Source: a virus. From it: a stretch of 31,715 bases of DNA. The notes beneath the pieces are model-generated. The model was not told where the DNA came from and made no database searches. It was given only the letters and a program-made list of their open reading frames with translations. Where the stretch lies: IMG/VR virus record IMGVR_UViG_3300032046_000133, positions 1 to 31,715 of that record; one strand, written 5' to 3'. A program made the translations under genes and the position numbers. The first letter of the stretch is position 1; each line of letters starts with the position of its first letter. Shown here in pieces: positions 2 through 30,712 of the stretch.

Positions 2-76
2 GATAATGATATTGCACAGCCAGTAACTAATAAACCAAGACAAGGAACCGTGCTACATGTCGGAAGAACAGACTAA
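2..76 (+). CDS. 3' end of an upstream gene (partial)
   Basis: An open frame enters from the left edge and encodes about 24 residues (DNDIAQPVTNKP..., ending HVGRTD) before a TAA at 74-76. The other two forward frames stop early, at base 1 and at 24-26, so this is the only frame that could carry an upstream gene into the sigma gene. It would overlap the sigma start at 57 by 20 nt, which is acceptable in a phage this compact. The fragment is too short to identify. It may also be chance. Confidence 0.35.
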   Translation, partial: DNDIAQPVTNKPRQGTVLHVGRTD

Positions 77-815
77 AAAGAATAAGTTCGCTAAGCCAAA
101 GAGGAAGAGAATAATAAAGAGGAAGCCCGGCACGATTTCCTTGAATTACTTTGGTCAAGACACACAAGATTCAATAGTAAAATATCAAAAAGAAGATAAT
201 CAAGAAGATAAAAAGAAAATCTATGTTAAGGAAGTCCTCCCAGCATTTGATTCTCTCACAGAAAACCTTATCAATGTGTATGGTTTCAAAATCACACACG
301 AATCAAAGAAGGATCTTAAGTCAGAATGTTTAGAATTCTTATACAGGACTGTACCAAAGTTTGATGAAGAAAAAGGTTCAAAGGCCTTTTCCTACTTCAA
401 CGTTGTTGCAAAGAACTGGTTAACAATAAGATCAAAACAGAATGTAAAAAGGATAAAAACTTATATCAGTGCTGATGATAGAGAAAGCTTCACTGAAGCC
501 GATCTAGATCTTTTTGAATCCCACAACATTGTTCCATCATATGAAGAACTAATTGCTATTAATGAACAAGGAAAACTGTTAAAAGATACTCTTGACAAGA
601 TGCGTGAGAAGGTTAAGACAGACAATGAAAAACTTTGTCTTAATGCCATTGAGCAGATTGTTGAGAACCTAGATGACATTGACATTCTAAACAAAAGAGC
701 AATCCTGTTATATATAAGGGAAATTACAGGACTTTCGAGTAAACAACTCTCAGTCGTTTTGTCGTCCCTTAAAAAAAGATACAAAGAAATGAAGAAACTA
801 GGGGAAAATGATTAG
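57..815 (+). CDS. 55: T4 gp55-like late-transcription sigma factor
   Basis: The 252-residue protein resembles the T4 gp55 class of divergent sigma factors, which direct host RNA polymerase to phage late promoters. The first 25 residues are very basic. A sigma region-2-like helical block spans about residues 85-138: an E/C-rich helix, then KFDEEKGSKAFSYF (101-114), then KNWLTIRSKQ and a basic tail. That FD-x-EKG-x-KAFSYF pattern is typical of gp55 homologues in T4-related phages, which is family knowledge rather than a search result. The C-terminal region, about 190-245, is helical and could contain a helix-turn-helix (LYIREITGLSSKQLSVVLSS), making the protein longer than T4 gp55. ATG 57 is preceded by GGAA about 12 nt upstream. 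The last 15 codons lie in a perfect 51-bp repeat whose second copy sits at 1835-1885, after the inserted endonuclease gene. The gene itself is intact. Confidence 0.75.
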   Translation: MSEEQTKKNKFAKPKRKRIIKRKPGTISLNYFGQDTQDSIVKYQKEDNQEDKKKIYVKEVLPAFDSLTENLINVYGFKITHESKKDLKSECLEFLYRTVPKFDEEKGSKAFSYFNVVAKNWLTIRSKQNVKRIKTYISADDRESFTEADLDLFESHNIVPSYEELIAINEQGKLLKDTLDKMREKVKTDNEKLCLNAIEQIVENLDDIDILNKRAILLYIREITGLSSKQLSVVLSSLKKRYKEMKKLGEND

Positions 816-818
816 TTT
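768..818 (+). repeat. 51-bp direct repeat, copy 1 (functional 3' end of the sigma gene)
   Basis: The sequence from CTTAAAAAAAGAT at 768 to ATTAGTTT at 818 is repeated without mismatch at 1835-1885, an offset of 1067 bp. This copy encodes the last 15 residues of the sigma factor (LKKRYKEM... to END), its TAG stop at 813-815 and three bases beyond. The flanking base differs on both sides (C767 versus T1834; T819 versus G1886), so the exact repeat is 51 bp. Confidence 0.97.
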
Positions 819-848
819 TAAAGAAAGTCTCATACATAACCTCCCCTG
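799..848 (+). promoter_or_regulatory. possible hairpin in the endonuclease leader
   Basis: TAGGGGA at 799-805 can pair with TCCCCTG at 842-848 (six Watson-Crick pairs plus one U-G) across a loop of about 36 nt. The stem would cover the end of the sigma gene and end 18 nt before the endonuclease ATG. Hairpins in the leaders of phage homing endonuclease genes are known to restrain their translation. Here the structure is only a pairing possibility, not a demonstrated element. Confidence 0.2.
832..847 (+). repeat. leader element shared by both GIY-YIG cassettes, copy 1
   Basis: The 16 bases ATACATAACCTCCCCT match ATATACAACCTGCCCT at 12862-12877 in 13 of 16 positions. Both lie between the left edge of the inserted cassette and the endonuclease start codon, 29-43 nt before the ATG when measured from the shared AACCT. 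It may be part of the mobile cassette or a common control element. Confidence 0.4.
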
Positions 849-866
849 GGTACAATACTTATTAAT

Positions 867-1859
867 ATGGAATTCATATTCAATGGTCACTCTAAAGAAA
901 GTGGCATATACAAAATAACAAATAAAGTAAATGGTAATGTATACATTGGTTCTGCCAAAGAATTTAAAGAACGTGTTAGGAATCATTTAAATTCTCTTAA
1001 AAAGAATAAACATCATAACAAACATCTTCAAGCATCGTGGAACAAACATGGTCCCGATGCTTTTATGTTTGAAGTTGTGGAAGTTACGGTTGGAACAATG
1101 CGGCAGCGACGGTTGTTAGAAGAACGATATATTAAAAAGCAAATGAAACTTGGTAATTGTTTTAACACTAAAGTAAAAACAATTAAAAGACAAGGCCCAT
1201 GGTCTTCTACTCCAGAAGAATCCAAAAGAAAACTTAGTGAATCACTAAAAATGTCTTGGACAGAAGAAAGGAAACGAGAATATTCTGAATTTCGTTGGCC
1301 TGAAGAAGAACGAAATAAGCAATCGCTCCGTTCTAAAGAATTATGGCAAGACCCTGAATATCAAGAGCACATGAGAGAAATTCGTACTGGTCAAACTCGT
1401 TCTGATGAAACAAAACAAAAACTTCGTGACCAAAAACTTGGGGAGTTAAATCCAATGTTTGGGAAAGATTTTTCTGCAGAACATCGAGAGAATATGGGTT
1501 TATCAAGAAGAGGTAAAAAACTTGGACCAACATCGGATGAAACCAAGAAAAGAATAAGTGATTCAAGAAAAGGTAAGGGTTGCATTCCTTGTAGTGAAGA
1601 AAAGAGATTAAAGTTATCGCTGGCTAACAAAGGAAAGAAACCGTCACAACTTGCTATACAAAGAACCATAGAAACGAAAACCAAGGAATATGATGTGTGG
1701 TTGTTATCTCCAGAAGGAAATGAAATATTTCTTAATAAGATCACCAAAGACTTTTTAACAACATACGGTTTGAGTAATGTCGGTCTAAACAAGTTGTTGA
1801 ATAAAAGAATAAAAAATCACCGTGGTTGGGTTATCTTAAAAAAAGATACAAAGAAATGA
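867..1859 (+). CDS. free-standing GIY-YIG homing endonuclease, I-TevI-like, with NUMOD3 repeats
   Basis: The 330-residue protein has an N-terminal GIY-YIG nuclease domain: GIY at 13-15, YIG at 26-28, the probable catalytic Arg36 in FKER, and a probable metal-binding Glu85 in EERYI. The wording closely follows I-TevI (SGIYKI, YIGSAK, NKHG). Residues about 115-260 hold NUMOD3-type basic repeats (NPMFGKDFSAEHREN, RRGKK, SRKGKG), which grip the DNA minor groove in this family. Residues about 274-323 form a terminal DNA-recognition module (LLSPEGNEIF ... HRGWVI). No clear Shine-Dalgarno precedes ATG 867. The gene lies between the sigma gene and the nucleotidase gene. Its last codons (about LKKDTKK) and TGA stop come from the second copy of the 51-bp repeat, read one frame away from the sigma reading. 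It would cut cognate sites in related phages to spread itself. No intron core is evident around it. Confidence 0.93.
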   Translation: MEFIFNGHSKESGIYKITNKVNGNVYIGSAKEFKERVRNHLNSLKKNKHHNKHLQASWNKHGPDAFMFEVVEVTVGTMRQRRLLEERYIKKQMKLGNCFNTKVKTIKRQGPWSSTPEESKRKLSESLKMSWTEERKREYSEFRWPEEERNKQSLRSKELWQDPEYQEHMREIRTGQTRSDETKQKLRDQKLGELNPMFGKDFSAEHRENMGLSRRGKKLGPTSDETKKRISDSRKGKGCIPCSEEKRLKLSLANKGKKPSQLAIQRTIETKTKEYDVWLLSPEGNEIFLNKITKDFLTTYGLSNVGLNKLLNKRIKNHRGWVILKKDTKK

Positions 1860-1885
1860 AGAAACTAGGGGAAAATGATTAGTTT
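1835..1885 (+). pseudogene. 51-bp direct repeat, copy 2 (displaced duplicate of the sigma 3' end)
   Basis: This is a perfect duplicate of 768-818. In the sigma frame it still reads LKKRYKEM... to the TAG at 1880-1882, but a TAA lies a few codons upstream and no sigma start precedes it, so it is a non-functional exon-like fragment. The endonuclease ORF uses its first 25 bases in another frame as its own terminus, with stop TGA 1857-1859. It marks the right edge of the inserted unit 819-1834 plus repeat. Confidence 0.9.
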
Positions 1886-1960: not shown

Positions 1961-2674
1961 ATGATGGACGAACAAACAAAATTAATGCTGCGCAACAAAA
2001 TCAATATCCTATTGGAAGAGATCCTCGACAACAAAGAGGAATCTCCTTTCCAAATTTATTGTGACATGGATGGTGTGCTTGTAGATTTTGAGGGAGGCAT
2101 TGTCAATACAGGAAATCTCTTGTATGACAAGATTTCAAACAACATAGAAGCCTATCGTAATGCTGACAAGAATGATCCAGCACAAAAGAAAATGGCATTG
2201 GCCTACAAATATTTTAAAAAGGTACAGGAGCAATATGGACCTGACAAGGTGGGTTTTACCTTTAAGGATTTTGAGAGCCGTGAAACGGGCGCCAAGGCCT
2301 TTAATCAGATGATGTATTGGTATATCGCAAGCAACAAGAAGTGGTGGGTTGATTTGGACTGGGCTCCAGGTGGAAAAGAGTTATGGGCAGCTATCAACCC
2401 AATGAATCCAATCATCTTAACTTCGCCAGTAGGAACATTGTCAGCAGAAGGTAAGAGGGTTTGGTGTCAGAATCATCTTGGTTTGTCGGGTAATAAGGTT
2501 ATTGTGGTAGACAACAAGAACATAGATACTGGAGACAAGATTGGTATCCTTATTGATGATAGGGTAAAGTCTATCAAGGCTATTGAATCTGTCGGAGGTA
2601 TTGGTATTCTACATGTTACTGGAGATGTTGGAACTACTCTAAAGACACTTGAAAAGATATTAAGAAATCAGTGA
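1961..2674 (+). CDS. HAD-superfamily 5'-nucleotidase / 5'(3')-deoxyribonucleotidase-like phosphatase
   Basis: The protein has the HAD signatures in order. Motif I is IYCDMDGVLVDF at about residues 32-43, with nucleophile and acid Asp35 and Asp37. A motif II Ser/Thr lies in ILTSPVG, a motif III lysine may lie near NKVIVVDNK, and motif IV is ILIDDRVKSI with paired Asp. The long insert between motifs I and II (about residues 45-130, with WWVDLDWAPGG) fits the C1 cap of the deoxyribonucleotidase group, which dephosphorylates nucleoside monophosphates. A role in adjusting the nucleotide pool during phage replication is inference. An in-frame TTG at 1922 would add 13 residues, but it coincides with the -35 box of a good promoter, so I start at ATG 1961 (237 aa); ATG 1964 is equally possible. 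It is the only likely metabolic enzyme in the window, sitting between the sigma gene and the baseplate genes. Confidence 0.75.
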   Translation: MMDEQTKLMLRNKINILLEEILDNKEESPFQIYCDMDGVLVDFEGGIVNTGNLLYDKISNNIEAYRNADKNDPAQKKMALAYKYFKKVQEQYGPDKVGFTFKDFESRETGAKAFNQMMYWYIASNKKWWVDLDWAPGGKELWAAINPMNPIILTSPVGTLSAEGKRVWCQNHLGLSGNKVIVVDNKNIDTGDKIGILIDDRVKSIKAIESVGGIGILHVTGDVGTTLKTLEKILRNQ

Positions 2675-2706: not shown

Positions 2707-3126
2707 ATGACAGATTCTTATGATGACGATGATAGCAGTGAAGAGTTTCTCCCAAAGACTCCAAAAGAACTAGAGAAGGAAGCTGAGAAGAATATAGAAG
2801 ACTTCGCTGAGCTTCTTGGGACCTTATCTTCGTTGCATGATAGAAAAAAGAGTCTCTGGAAACAGATATACACCAATGCAGTTCTTGATAGACGCAATGC
2901 CTATATCATGTTTGGAGATCTTTATCAAAAGGTTCACCAAAGTCCAACCGAACATGCTGTTCATGGGCAAACACTTTCAAAGTATCTTGAGAGAATGAAC
3001 AAGTCCAATGAGCAATTGATTAGACTTGCAGAAATCCTTGATGATGCTGTTGAAATGGATGAAGACGACATTACAGATCAAGATTCCTTCTTTGAAAAGA
3101 TGGAAAGTGCCAACAAGAAAAAGTGA
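2707..3126 (+). CDS. small acidic conserved phage protein, probably tail/baseplate associated
   Basis: The 139-residue protein starts with a run of Asp/Ser/Glu (DSYDDDDSSEEF) and ends with a Lys-rich tail. Its centre (about 35-110) is predicted helical, with the segment RRNAYIMFGDLYQKVHQ and then EHAVHGQTLSKYLERMNKSNEQL. I recall similar short proteins next to gp5-like hub genes in marine T4-related phages, but I cannot assign a function. AAGG about 7 nt before ATG 2707 is a good ribosome-binding site. The next gene begins 10 nt after its stop, so the two are probably co-translated. It may be an assembly or scaffolding factor; that is a guess from position. Confidence 0.6.
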   Translation: MTDSYDDDDSSEEFLPKTPKELEKEAEKNIEDFAELLGTLSSLHDRKKSLWKQIYTNAVLDRRNAYIMFGDLYQKVHQSPTEHAVHGQTLSKYLERMNKSNEQLIRLAEILDDAVEMDEDDITDQDSFFEKMESANKKK

Positions 3127-12861: not shown

Positions 12862-12877
12862 ATATACAACCTGCCCT
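12862..12877 (+). repeat. leader element shared by both GIY-YIG cassettes, copy 2
   Basis: ATATACAACCTGCCCT matches 13 of 16 bases of 832-847 in the leader of the first GIY-YIG gene. It begins a few bases inside the left edge of the inserted segment. Its function is unknown. Confidence 0.4.
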
Positions 12878-12910: not shown

Positions 12911-13792
12911 ATGGAAACAAATTATCTGGGCAACTTTATGAAAAGTGGTGTATATAAAATATACAACAAAGAAAATGGCCGCATTTATATTGGGTCTGCA
13001 AAAAGATTCAAAGAACGATATATGGGACATTTTTCTTCTCTTAAAAGAAATAAACACCATAATATATTCCTTCAAGGAGATTTTAATAAATTTGGAGAAC
13101 AATGTTTCTTGTTTGAAGTTTTAGAAGTAGTACCTGGAGATAAATCTAATCGACAAATTAAAGAACAAGAGTATATCAACAAATATTATGATAATCAATT
13201 GCTTTGTTACAATTTAGACAAAAAAGCTAAACTTAGTGCGGCAGATATAAAACAAAAAAAAGAGCATTCACAAAAAAAATCAGAACTGTTGAAAATTAGG
13301 TGGGCGACAGATTTAACTTTTAGAGAAAAAATGAGTGGCAAAAATCATCCAAGATTTGGTAAAGAAATCCCGGAACATATAAAATTAGCCTTACTAAAAT
13401 CTCTAGTCGGAAACACTCATTTTAAAGGAAAGAAACATACAGAAATTGCTAAAAAGAAACTTTCTGATAAACACAAGGGTAAGAAAATATCCAAAGAACA
13501 AAAAGAAGCACATTCAAAATTAATGACTGGCAGAAAATTATCTTTAAAGCATAGAAACAATATTAGTCTTGGAAACATTGGTAGAAAACAGTCTGAACAC
13601 CAAAAAAGTGCTGTTTCTTTAAAGAATTCAAAACTTTTCAATATAGAATTGATATCTCCTGATGGTAATGTTTTTGGACCAATCAAAAATTTGGCCAAAT
13701 TTGCAAGAGATCATAATTTATCATCACAGAAACTTCATTTGTTAATAACAAAAAAAAGAAAAAGTCATAAAGGCTGGAAGTTGGTATACTAA
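12911..13792 (+). CDS. free-standing GIY-YIG homing endonuclease with NUMOD3 repeats (second copy)
   Basis: The 293-residue protein is a diverged paralogue of the first GIY-YIG gene. It has GVY at 13-15, YIG at 26-28, Arg36 in FKER, the KRNKHHN stretch and Glu85 in EQEYI. NUMOD3-type repeats follow at about 141-232 (NHPRFGKEIPEHIK, FKGKKHTEIAKKKLSDKHKG, GRKLSLKHRN, GRKQSEHQKSA). The terminal recognition module is at about 243-290 (IELISPDGNVFG ... HKGWK). AAGGAAA before ATG 12911 is a clear ribosome-binding site, unlike in the first copy. An internal Met10 would give an I-TevI-like start (MKSGVY). It lies between two structural genes, and its stop shares bases with the next ATG (TAATG at 13790-13794). 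The flanking genes are unbroken, so this is a scarless insertion at a gene boundary. Confidence 0.93.
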   Translation: METNYLGNFMKSGVYKIYNKENGRIYIGSAKRFKERYMGHFSSLKRNKHHNIFLQGDFNKFGEQCFLFEVLEVVPGDKSNRQIKEQEYINKYYDNQLLCYNLDKKAKLSAADIKQKKEHSQKKSELLKIRWATDLTFREKMSGKNHPRFGKEIPEHIKLALLKSLVGNTHFKGKKHTEIAKKKLSDKHKGKKISKEQKEAHSKLMTGRKLSLKHRNNISLGNIGRKQSEHQKSAVSLKNSKLFNIELISPDGNVFGPIKNLAKFARDHNLSSQKLHLLITKKRKSHKGWKLVY

Positions 13793-27418: not shown

Positions 27419-29304
27419 TGTCAACTACCCTACCATCTAAAAAAATTGTAATAGCAGACGCACCAGAGATTGGTGCATTTAAGGCTAAATTCGTCTACAA
27501 TTATTTTGAGAAAGACGAAAGACAAAATGATTCTGGTCTGATCTCAAAAGAGTTTGTTACAAAGAGACCATCTGAAGGTTTTGATGCGCAGTTTGTCAAT
27601 TCCAAAGCCTTTAATCGTTTCACTTCCAGATACATTCAGTTTGATTGGAAACCTAACCTTGAAACAGAATCCATCAAAGATGCCAATATTACAATAAAAG
27701 ACAACATCAAGAAGGTTCACTTTGAACAAGACTTCCTTGGTGAAGATTATACAAGTTTGGTATTTCAAGATTCTGGCAAAGATGGAAAAATGCAATATTT
27801 TTTCAAAAGGTTGCTTCAACAACAAAAGAATCAACAAGATCCAAACGCAGCTGAAATTACAATACAACAATCTCCAATGGATGCTGTAAAAACTATGTTG
27901 GAAAAGACATCAGATGTTATTGAACCTTCACTTGTTTGTGATTCAATGATAAATCTTGAATCAGATGGCTATGTCTTTTTAGATAAGAACAACGATAAGA
28001 TCACAACAGACTCTCTATTGAAAGAGATGGCCAACGTAAAAACATTTGGTCACATAAACAGCAAGTTCTTATGGACAATAATGAAATCTGCCTTGGAGGG
28101 GAATCTTAATGTGTTTGAAGATGAAGTTCTTGCTGCCAAAGACAAATACAAGCAGATAGAACAGAATGCTCAAAACGTATCTAATAACTCTGTTGTATCA
28201 AGTCAAGATTATGACATTGAAATTCAAGAGTATGTCGGAGAACCTAAAAAAGTAGAAACCAATGGTTATTCTCCAAAGAAACAAATTCTTGGTTACATTA
28301 TTGACAAAACAGAAAAAGACATTAATGACAATGTTACTACCTGTGACCCAATTATCATTGAAAACCCAAACATTGCTACAACTATTGATTTGAAGGTAAA
28401 ATATGGTTCAACGTATTACTATAGCATAAGAGCAATATATTACGTAGAGACACAAGCAGAAGAATCAGACACTGGTGAGTTGTACATCATCGCTCATCTT
28501 CTTTCTTCTAAGAGTTCTATAACAAGAGTTGTTCCATGTATTGAAACCGTGGCACCACCACCTCCAGCAGATTTTGATGTAAGATGGGATGCAAACAAAG
28601 CACAACTAGCATTAGAATGGAACTTCCCAATAAACCCTCAGAGAGACATTAAGAAATGGCAAATCTTCAGAAGGTCTTCTATTAAAGAAGCATTCCAGTT
28701 GATTAAGGTTTATGACTTTAATGATTCAACCATTGTTGCTGATGATGGGCAAACAGAATATCCAAGTCCGTATCTGATAGAAAAATTGGTTAATCCTCAA
28801 ACTTTCTTTATTGATCATGAATTTGTCAAAAACAAATCTACTGGAGAATATCCAACTTTTATTTATGCAGTTTGTTCGGTGGATGCTCATGGGCATTCTT
28901 CAAACTATTCTATTCAGGTTGAGTGTACCTTTAACAGATTTAAGAACAAGCTGCTAAAGAAAATGGTATCTCATTCTGGTGCACCTAAACCATTCCCAAA
29001 CTATTATTTGTTGATGGACACCTTTGTAGACGTAATGAGAACTTCCAGAAAGAACAACTCTGTGAAGGTAGTCTTCAGCCCAGAATATCTTAAGGTTGTT
29101 GATAACGAAAACAACGATTTGAGGCTTATCAAAACTGGGTTAAATGAGTCGTATAAGATAAACCTGATCAACCTTGATATTCAAGATCAGCAAAACATCG
29201 AAATCAACATAAAAGACATGAGATTGACTGAAGATAAGACCAAGGACAATCTGACAAAAGACAAAAAGACTGTGTTTAGAACAAAAAGAAGAATTAATAG
29301 ATAG
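27418..29304 (+). CDS. virion protein with Fn3-like domain
   Basis: In this 628-residue protein, residues about 380-500 fit a fibronectin type III-like fold. It starts after a Pro-rich linker (VAPPPPADFDVRWD), then LALEWNFPINPQRDIKKWQI and FRRSS, then FIYAVCSVDAHGHSSNYS, the usual F/G strand pattern. A preceding region (YYYSIRAIYYVET) may be a second Fn3 module. The N-terminal 270 residues are polar and unrecognised, and the tail is strongly basic and acidic mixed (DKTKDNLTKDKKTVFRTKRR). The gene is coupled by TAATG to the 1324-residue gene. Its TAG (29302-29304) overlaps the convergent endonuclease gene and the left arm of a perfect hairpin, so transcription probably ends here. Confidence 0.6.
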   Translation: MSTTLPSKKIVIADAPEIGAFKAKFVYNYFEKDERQNDSGLISKEFVTKRPSEGFDAQFVNSKAFNRFTSRYIQFDWKPNLETESIKDANITIKDNIKKVHFEQDFLGEDYTSLVFQDSGKDGKMQYFFKRLLQQQKNQQDPNAAEITIQQSPMDAVKTMLEKTSDVIEPSLVCDSMINLESDGYVFLDKNNDKITTDSLLKEMANVKTFGHINSKFLWTIMKSALEGNLNVFEDEVLAAKDKYKQIEQNAQNVSNNSVVSSQDYDIEIQEYVGEPKKVETNGYSPKKQILGYIIDKTEKDINDNVTTCDPIIIENPNIATTIDLKVKYGSTYYYSIRAIYYVETQAEESDTGELYIIAHLLSSKSSITRVVPCIETVAPPPPADFDVRWDANKAQLALEWNFPINPQRDIKKWQIFRRSSIKEAFQLIKVYDFNDSTIVADDGQTEYPSPYLIEKLVNPQTFFIDHEFVKNKSTGEYPTFIYAVCSVDAHGHSSNYSIQVECTFNRFKNKLLKKMVSHSGAPKPFPNYYLLMDTFVDVMRTSRKNNSVKVVFSPEYLKVVDNENNDLRLIKTGLNESYKINLINLDIQDQQNIEINIKDMRLTEDKTKDNLTKDKKTVFRTKRRINR

Positions 29305-30712
29305 GTTGTTTAACAAACAACCTCTGACCAGCATCATATAGTCTATACCAGCATAATTCTTCTGCGTGTTGTTTCTCAGATAGTTGTCTATCATCCATGT
29401 TTGCTCGACACTTAAGTCTGTTATATCTATTCTCTCCATCTGTCCATTGCCAACCAGCAGTATCTTTTATTAATTTAAAACCCTTAGAAGGCAGGTGTAA
29501 ACCAGTACCATATCGCAGATCAACCCAGTTGTGAACCTCTGTTATAGAGCCTGTTGGATAGCTTCTTTCAATATGTTTCAATAGTTTTGAAAAACCTCCG
29601 ACGACTGTGAGATTTGTCTTTGTACAAAACCTTTCAACATTCAGAATTTGACCCTTCTTTTTATACGACATTAGACAAACAAGAACATTAGTTTTCAAAT
29701 CGTAAAGACCAATATGTTTTGCCTTTATTGCTCCCATTAAATGGTTGTTGTATAAAAATTCATTCGCAATAGATTGTTCTACTGGCTTTATCGATGTTTT
29801 TCTTGCTTGTGTTTTGTTAACTGTTTTACCAAGGGCATTATTTACTATTGACTTTACAATCTGAGCCTTGTTATAGACCTCATCTTCATAAAACTGAAAG
29901 AGTCTAATACCTTTATCTTCAAATTCTTTTCTTGCTTTGAAATGGTAAGACTTATCTTTTTGTTTCTCTGAATGCCAATATAATCCGTCAACATTCACAT
30001 ATATTGATTCAGATAGTTTGAAGTCAGGTCTAAGCGCTCGACTCAAACATTCTGGCTTTTTATTATAATGTGGTATTTCAAACAAAGTCTCGGAAAATAC
30101 TTCAAGTTTAGTTTTGTTTGATTTCCAATTTTCAAAAAAAACAGCCAAATCATTTGAGGATATATCTTTTCCTTTAAAGTTAGTGATTAAACTAGTGTAT
30201 GATGGGGCACCTGTATCTTGTTTTCTAATCCAATCTTGCAAGTGTTCTCCAGTGTCTATAATAAACCTGTCAGATATTTTTTCACGCTTGATGACCTTCG
30301 TTTCTTTTAACTTTGAAATATTATCAACGCCATATTTTCTGATCAGAGTCTCTTTGATCTTATCTTTAACAGTCTCTGATTGAAATATTTGTTCAACCCC
30401 ATACTTTTTTAAGTTTGTCTTTTTAACCTTTTTTTTGGTCTGCTCACCATGTAAAGAACAAACATTGCCATACTTTTCAATATTGGTTTTTGATCTATTA
30501 TCTATGGCACGTTTTGGGTGACATGACATCTGACTAAACACACTTTTAGGTACAGCGAAAAAAAACTCGCCCTGGATTGCATCATAAAATTTACACTTAT
30601 GTTTCCAACCAACAAAACCATCTTCACAAAGTTCTATGTCAAGTCTACCTTGTTCATCAAATCGTTTTTTGACAACCTCAAAGGTTAATTTTTCATTGTA
30701 TTTTTTCGTCAT
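29294..30712 (-). CDS. Vsr-like (EDxHD-type) homing endonuclease with KYG repeats
   Basis: The 472-residue protein has three modules. First, Tyr-Gly repeats spaced exactly 23 residues apart (Y81, Y104, Y127 in EKYG, KKYGVE, RKYGVD), the DUF723-like DNA-binding repeats of phage endonucleases. Second, a Vsr/very-short-patch-like nuclease core at about 203-290: SETLFEI, RPDF (228-231), VDGLYWHSEK with Asp242 and His247, and GIRLFQFYEDE. Third, a C-terminal domain (about 305-470) with NEFLYNNHLMGA, IGLYDL, VVGGFSKLLKHIERSYP and the 'D-x-R' segment, often found fused to these nucleases. It is unrelated to the two GIY-YIG genes and runs against all other genes. Its 3' end overlaps the Fn3-like gene by 11 nt. 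It is a selfish element inserted between structural genes. The leader has no strong ribosome-binding site. Confidence 0.85.
   Translation of the reverse strand: MTKKYNEKLTFEVVKKRFDEQGRLDIELCEDGFVGWKHKCKFYDAIQGEFFFAVPKSVFSQMSCHPKRAIDNRSKTNIEKYGNVCSLHGEQTKKKVKKTNLKKYGVEQIFQSETVKDKIKETLIRKYGVDNISKLKETKVIKREKISDRFIIDTGEHLQDWIRKQDTGAPSYTSLITNFKGKDISSNDLAVFFENWKSNKTKLEVFSETLFEIPHYNKKPECLSRALRPDFKLSESIYVNVDGLYWHSEKQKDKSYHFKARKEFEDKGIRLFQFYEDEVYNKAQIVKSIVNNALGKTVNKTQARKTSIKPVEQSIANEFLYNNHLMGAIKAKHIGLYDLKTNVLVCLMSYKKKGQILNVERFCTKTNLTVVGGFSKLLKHIERSYPTGSITEVHNWVDLRYGTGLHLPSKGFKLIKDTAGWQWTDGENRYNRLKCRANMDDRQLSEKQHAEELCWYRLYDAGQRLFVKQPIY
29303..29323. terminator. perfect 9-bp inverted repeat at the convergent gene ends
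   Basis: AGGTTGTTT (29303-29311) and AAACAACCT (29315-29323) are exact reverse complements separated by AAC. The hairpin overlaps the stop codon of the + strand Fn3-like gene and the last codons of the - strand endonuclease gene. Its location suits a bidirectional terminator. However, neither strand has a proper U-tract after the stem and the stem is not GC-rich, so termination is inferred. Confidence 0.4.

Follow-up and report, generated by a model that had tools for sequence, protein, structure and literature searches.

What process leaves a free-standing nuclease gene between two identical copies of the end of a phage sigma gene? The question is raised by a viral DNA stretch of 31,715 nt from IMG/VR (IMGVR_UViG_3300032046_000133), referred to here, at its full length, as the window. 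The results of our analysis point to a homing endonuclease gene (HEG) that probably entered the 3' end of the sigma gene together with a copy of that end.

The repeat and its gene neighbourhood

The features of the window that bear on this question are the following.

57-815, plus strand: predicted late sigma factor gene (gp55-like family), intact, a 252-aa ORF with 68 related loci
768-818, plus strand: repeat copy 1, the present tail of the sigma gene (51/51 bp against 1835-1885)
819-866, plus strand: intergenic leader of the HEG, with the motif AACCTSCCCT at 838 and again before the second GIY-YIG gene (12868)
867-1859, plus strand: predicted free-standing GIY-YIG HEG with NUMOD3, 330 aa
1835-1885, plus strand: repeat copy 2, the putative leftover sigma tail, or stub (51/51 bp against 768-818)
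1964-2674, plus strand: 5'-deoxyribonucleotidase-like gene after the stub (PHROG 2643, 2e-16; Pfam NT5C below the cut-off)
2707-3126, plus strand: conserved gene, in most relatives the next gene after sigma
12911-13792, plus strand: second homing endonuclease gene of the GIY-YIG/NUMOD type (34% alignment identity with the first)
29294-30712, minus strand: third nuclease gene (phrog_3339 homing endonuclease, 2e-52)

The sigma identity of the product of the uninterrupted ORF 57-815 is supported indirectly, by matches of its family members. The window protein itself gave no Pfam and no PHROG match, 8 of 16 aligned members of the family matched phrog_234, 'late sigma transcription factor', and a search of solved structures with the family returned nothing useful.

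Comparison of the window with itself confirmed what an earlier note on this DNA had claimed, namely, that bases 768-818 and 1835-1885 are identical (51/51 bp, spacing 1067) and that the first copy completes the late sigma gene: copy 1 comprises the final 15 codons and the stop of the intact ORF, plus 3 bp. The second copy, placed by the note just after the GIY-YIG gene, has to be relocated, as it overlaps the end of that gene. Copy 2 provides, in a frame different from that of sigma, the final codons (..LKKDTKK) and the stop of the ORF 867-1859, and thus the junction falls inside the nuclease gene or right at its end. It is marked by the left edge of copy 2, at about 1835, which corresponds to sigma codon L238. 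The 51-bp identity is far beyond chance: no equivalent match, with up to three mismatches allowed, occurred in 100 dinucleotide shuffles of the window, and no other direct repeat of at least 24 bp was reported in the window with a 16-base seed. Ungapped extension of the repeat gives 58 bp with 2 mismatches, and for about 30 nt beyond the exact repeat the two copies are still weakly similar (p ~7e-4 against shuffles, several lengths having been tried).

In both copies (808-830 and 1875-1900), ATGATTAGTTT stands after AGGGGAAA and overlaps the sigma stop. In copy 1, ATGATTAGTTT would read MISFKE.., similar to MINFKE.., with which the gene after sigma begins in the related locus L045; possibly, its two occurrences are remnants of an old overlapping start.

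The product of 867-1859 matched Pfam GIY-YIG (PF01541, 3.3e-9, above the cut-off), NUMOD3 (5.1e-15) and the homing endonuclease family PHROG 314 (4.7e-27). In a 3-sequence alignment with this nuclease, GIY, YIG, R36, H40, E85 and N100 are invariant. The presence of the GIY-YIG catalytic residues and of a NUMOD module, with no intron or intein setting, assigns the gene, which starts 52 bp after the sigma stop, as a free-standing HEG, and its product is presumably an active endonuclease. A search of the window against Rfam gave no RNA match.

A motif of the type AA(A)ACCTSCCCTC..TACT is present in the window only ahead of the two GIY-YIG genes (838-847 and 12868-12877), and also about 25-35 nt before start codons in L037, L044-L047, L074, L077-L079 and L082. 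Perhaps it serves as a promoter of the phage; taken by itself, the degenerate pattern showed no enrichment over shuffles. Repeats at the HEGs of L077, L078/L079 and L074 were rejected as stubs, since they resemble this intergenic motif (AACCTGCCCTC..TACT), which is found elsewhere.

The flanks of the two other nuclease genes of the window (12911-13792 and 29294-30712) contain no significant duplication. At the former, sited between two genes, a flanking duplication is not detectable; the latter is antisense and shares 11 bp with the end of the gene before it. The nucleotidase-like gene (1964-2674) lies between sigma and the conserved gene at 2707 and is apparently inserted relative to most related phages. 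In IMG/VR, its relatives comprised two matches at about 35% identity, with no sigma found nearby. The distance between the sigma stop and the homologue of the gene at 2707 is below 150 bp in 51 of the 62 relatives in which both were located.

Related sigma loci and other nuclease loci

Among the 68 loci in IMG/VR that encode sigma relatives, none has a duplicated sigma tail, and the longest repeat between tail and downstream sequence is 13-14 bp (L014 and L066, whose downstream sequence is too short, do not count in this check). The earlier note had named two tail copies in relatives as the observation that would contradict its reading; no related sigma locus has two. The nearest relative, L001 (67% identity), has one tail followed by another gene. 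An exact 26-mer of the repeat had no match in IMG/VR, the first 6 kb had none in a distant blastn search against annotated phages, and a genome collection searched with the sigma alignment gave none. No HEG-less genome of the window's own species was found in the sequence searches; HEG and duplication are lacking in relatives more distant than that.

The sigma loci L007 and L008 share 99.2% identity over 4120 bp as far as the sigma stop codon; after it they are entirely different. The slot after sigma contains an HNH-like/NUMOD3 gene in L007 (4317-5117) and a GIY-YIG gene in L008 (4649-5640), the latter encoding a nuclease 54% identical to the product of 867-1859; the two loci are alike again from a common CTCAAACACTAG, with which the final three codons of the nuclease gene are encoded. 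An HNH-like/NUMOD3 gene follows sigma also in L010. The presence of different nucleases in the nearly identical L007 and L008 indicates that the slot takes whole nuclease cassettes, and the three loci together indicate a site where such cassettes come and go. A sigma-tail stub was not seen in L008; CTCAAACACTAG was considered as a decayed sigma tail, and is too short for a call.

These loci bear on two other explanations of the repeat. Two metagenomic variants might have been joined in assembly through a common 51-mer, and the repeat is indeed short and known from a single contig. However, the flanks at both junctions are unique, the HEG frame runs into copy 2 to a stop, and a homologous HEG is present right after sigma, independently, in L008. 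Additionally, several unrelated contigs have the same layout with diverged copies, as described below, which is impossible by k-mer joining. We regard such an artefact as very improbable. Copy 2 might alternatively be kept for a function of its own, for instance because the HEG needs it as stop and 3' end, or the nucleotidase gene as a source of expression signals, its origin being incidental. While the last codons and the stop of the HEG are read there, the homologous HEG of L008 ends without such a copy, and the stubs found at other loci are decayed gene fragments. As an account of the repeat this is improbable, whereas as a later use of copy 2 it is compatible with the best explanation.

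To see how general the layout is, 80 GIY-YIG relatives were fetched, and the upstream and downstream flanks were compared with each other for 86 nuclease loci and for 350 genes serving as controls. High flank-similarity scores were obtained for 10 of the 86 nuclease loci versus 5 of the 350 controls (Fisher p = 7e-5, a rough value, as duplicates were kept). Among the ten, two represent motif repeats or perhaps paralogues, and the enrichment is taken from this first Fisher test only, a second one having used hand-entered post hoc counts. Two of the five high-scoring 'controls' are nucleases of other families (L036 and L095), with a gene end and a stub arranged as at the GIY-YIG loci, and one lies between two nuclease genes. 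The stub cases were picked by score, after which the top-scoring loci were read by eye; all are in metagenomic viral contigs. Most of the surveyed HEG loci, including the second GIY-YIG gene of the window and L008, have no detectable stub, and no clear stub was seen in any of 12 loci from the annotated phage collection. Similarities at L152 and L112, which could reflect paralogous genes, were left uncounted, and a repeat of phage G was rejected because it looks like a terminator hairpin.

The stub cases repeat the layout of the window with diverged copies: the nuclease separates a gene end supplied in frame from a stub of the old one. The targets include a structural-looking gene and genes for groEL, primase, a methyltransferase, a receiver-domain protein, a glycosyltransferase and PTH2, and in this survey sample heads are replaced more often than tails. 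A tail case is L093, where the upstream gene ends with DCLDGGSY* and DCLDGGTY* is found one base after the nuclease stop. In L124 (3810-5859), a groEL head ending with TLGPRGRTVALFHKE precedes the GIY-YIG gene, and an intact viral chaperonin gene with its own diverged head follows it; the upstream head stub is native-looking. Other head cases are L118 (MSYTVTNFKTKK ahead of the nuclease and a full MSYTVTNFRTKK gene after it), L088 (head stub of an FkbM-type methyltransferase), L140/L143 (a primase head, the nuclease being on the opposite strand), L141 and L145 (heads ending with IYLDDV/IYLDDI ahead of the nuclease and a receiver-domain gene after it), and L095 (head of PTH2).

Which of the two ends is native can be judged at L036 (1707-3210, also L164) and L018 (1710-3210, also L165), where a glycosyltransferase head is followed by the nuclease, a second head, a group I intron (Rfam RF00028) and the gene body. 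The same glycosyltransferase gene is uninterrupted in eight relatives. The L036 stub matches the uninterrupted, HEG-less L035 at 51/54 bases, while the supplied head matches L035 at 37/54 and the stub itself at 39/54 bases. Between L036 and L018, identity amounts to 89% in the nuclease gene and 95.4% in the supplied head and intron, versus 80% in the gene body and 65% in the upstream region, and the two stubs break at one codon (KVIT). These base matches and identities indicate that nuclease and supplied end travel together, the stub being the native end; a native stub and a foreign supplied head are thereby shown for L036/L018. The nuclease, the foreign glycosyltransferase head and the group I intron appear to move as a unit there, with the native head left behind. 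The diverged copies and the foreign end of L036/L018 lend substance to the proposal of the earlier note that the element lands in a coding sequence and keeps it whole by supplying or duplicating the tail.

Possible installation of the element

By analogy with L036/L018 and L093, copy 1 was probably supplied together with the element and copy 2 is probably the native sigma tail. The break would then have occurred exactly at, or close to, where copy 2 begins on the left (~1835), a position that end trimming could shift. We consider it probable that a free-standing GIY-YIG HEG entered sigma at its 3' end by one-sided break repair, as part of a unit that carries a gene end. The unit would comprise the sigma tail, the short leader and the endonuclease gene. 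In a mixed infection, the enzyme would cut a HEG-less sigma gene near codon L238. The homologous, sigma-body side of the break would then invade the HEG-carrying donor and copy its sigma tail, leader and HEG. The recipient's 51-bp tail and downstream DNA, having no match beyond the donor HEG, would be joined illegitimately to the end of the copied HEG. The outcome would be a whole sigma gene with the donor tail, and a recipient tail turned into a stub that gives the HEG its last codons and stop. Later recombination between the copies could remove 1067 bp, an intact sigma gene remaining. In the case of the window, we infer the direction, the cut position, the repair route and this reversibility. 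A recognition site wholly within the retained sigma sequence would lead to self-cutting, which means that the phage must owe its protection to bases left of 768 or to the context.

An inserted in-phase end and a second end beyond the ORF are both present in the window, as copy 1, which completes sigma, and copy 2 at 1835-1885. Several points count against this reading: the copies in the window are identical, no HEG-less genome of the same species was found, the T4 free-standing enzymes cut far from their own gene, the phage could be exposed to self-cutting, and most surveyed loci are without a stub, the recurring cases being from metagenomic contigs. Because of the identity, a foreign origin of either copy is not demonstrable in the window, where a local duplication would look alike. 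The HEG would in that case have been joined at a break near codon 238, and the tail would have been recopied from a sister genome by template switching; neither copy would be foreign, and the element would carry no tail. The zero mismatches over 51 bp are in line with such an event, as is the end of the exact repeat 3 bp past the stop codon, after which the sequences differ. In contrast, the weak similarity over about 30 nt past the repeat fits two homologous alleles better than a switch to unrelated DNA, the supplied end at L036/L018 is foreign and travels with the HEG, and the copies are diverged in the other cases. We consider local duplication unlikely.

The identity itself may mean that donor and recipient shared this stretch, that the tail was copied locally during repair, or that conversion occurred later. 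The earlier note took the zero mismatches as a sign of a recent event or of continuing conversion, which is possible and is not forced by the data, as the sequences past the stop differ and are weakly similar. Such a combination of difference and weak similarity is expected of a donor closely related to the recipient.

Integrases that insert at tRNA genes restore the gene end by a short identical segment, and the restored sigma end would resemble what an integrase-like element leaves when it duplicates an att-type segment at the end of a gene. This likeness, drawn by the earlier note, proved misleading. Insertion of the integrase/tRNA type was rejected, given that the target is a sigma gene, that the sole long gene in the 1067-bp unit encodes a GIY-YIG/NUMOD3 endonuclease and not an integrase, and that the window has no Rfam RNA match. 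The copies of other members are moreover diverged and not identical, and the anatomy is that of fungal mitochondrial homing ORFs (PMC3630166). Site-specific recombination is in our view extremely improbable.

Taken beyond the window, the survey raises the question whether gene-end-replacing homing elements form a general class in phages, in which a gene head or tail is swapped for a donor version by one-sided homing and a native stub is left. We see the chances of such a class, which would use GIY-YIG and at least two other nuclease types, as evenly balanced. If it exists, the stub would record the approximate cut site, divergence of the supplied end would account for immunity to renewed cutting, and recombination between the flanking copies could restore the empty site.

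Comparison with known systems

Free-standing GIY-YIG genes that lie beside critical genes and spread by break repair and co-conversion are known from the intronless homing of the T4 Seg and Mob enzymes, which the window element resembles (PMC2988022). The T4 review mentions no duplication of a target-gene end, however, and the free-standing enzymes known from T4 have their cleavage sites hundreds to thousands of bp away from the enzyme gene (PMC2988022). For the T4 td intron, one-sided homing events have been described in which illegitimate repair made the junction at microhomology (PMC2988022), and the window element was probably installed by one-sided double-strand-break repair. If this reading is right, a free-standing nuclease gene can enter genomes that are homologous on one side only, with the target gene spared, and the cut sites of many uncharacterised phage nucleases can be read approximately from the stub edge.

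In collaborative homing, a HEG lies beside a gene with an endonuclease-free intron (discussed in PMC10448857). The unit of HEG, gene head and group I intron at L036/L018 is similar, while a leftover native head is absent from the description of collaborative homing, and the window has no intron (PMC10448857). Certain mitochondrial introns of Tremella fuciformis carry a duplication of the N-terminal part of the host gene and can replace that part (PMC7315562). As mobile elements with a copy of a part of the host gene they resemble the window element and especially the head-stub cases, L036/L018 also holding a group I intron; the Tremella duplication is located within the intron, whereas the window element is without intron and affects the 3' end of the gene (PMC7315562). 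Ends of chaperonin, primase, sigma factor and glycosyltransferase genes could, if our reading holds, be exchanged between phages by this route, giving mosaic genes.

In the literature searched, with most subscription journals outside its scope, we found no earlier phage report of a gene-end-carrying HEG, and priority is not established. The closest counterparts are the gene-end-carrying mobile ORFs of fungal mitochondria, described for atp6 of Allomyces and for atp6, atp9, cox2 and nad3 of Glomus (PMC3630166). In these, as in the window, an endonuclease ORF is located near the 3' end of a gene, an in-phase C-terminal segment is supplied, and the native segment lies downstream (PMC3630166). The plan of Glomus atp9 is almost the same as that of the window: an inserted end at 175-225 (51 positions), a GIY-YIG ORF at 334-1119, and the native end directly after it, at 1120-1171 (PMC3630166). 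The inserted fungal ends are diverged (63.5% nucleotide identity in atp6) and were inferred to be horizontally acquired, while the window is from a phage, concerns a late sigma gene and has two identical copies (PMC3630166). On the strength of this analogy, the window element is best read as a phage counterpart of the fungal ORFs, which, if right, would tie phage homing to a process known mainly from fungal mitochondria.
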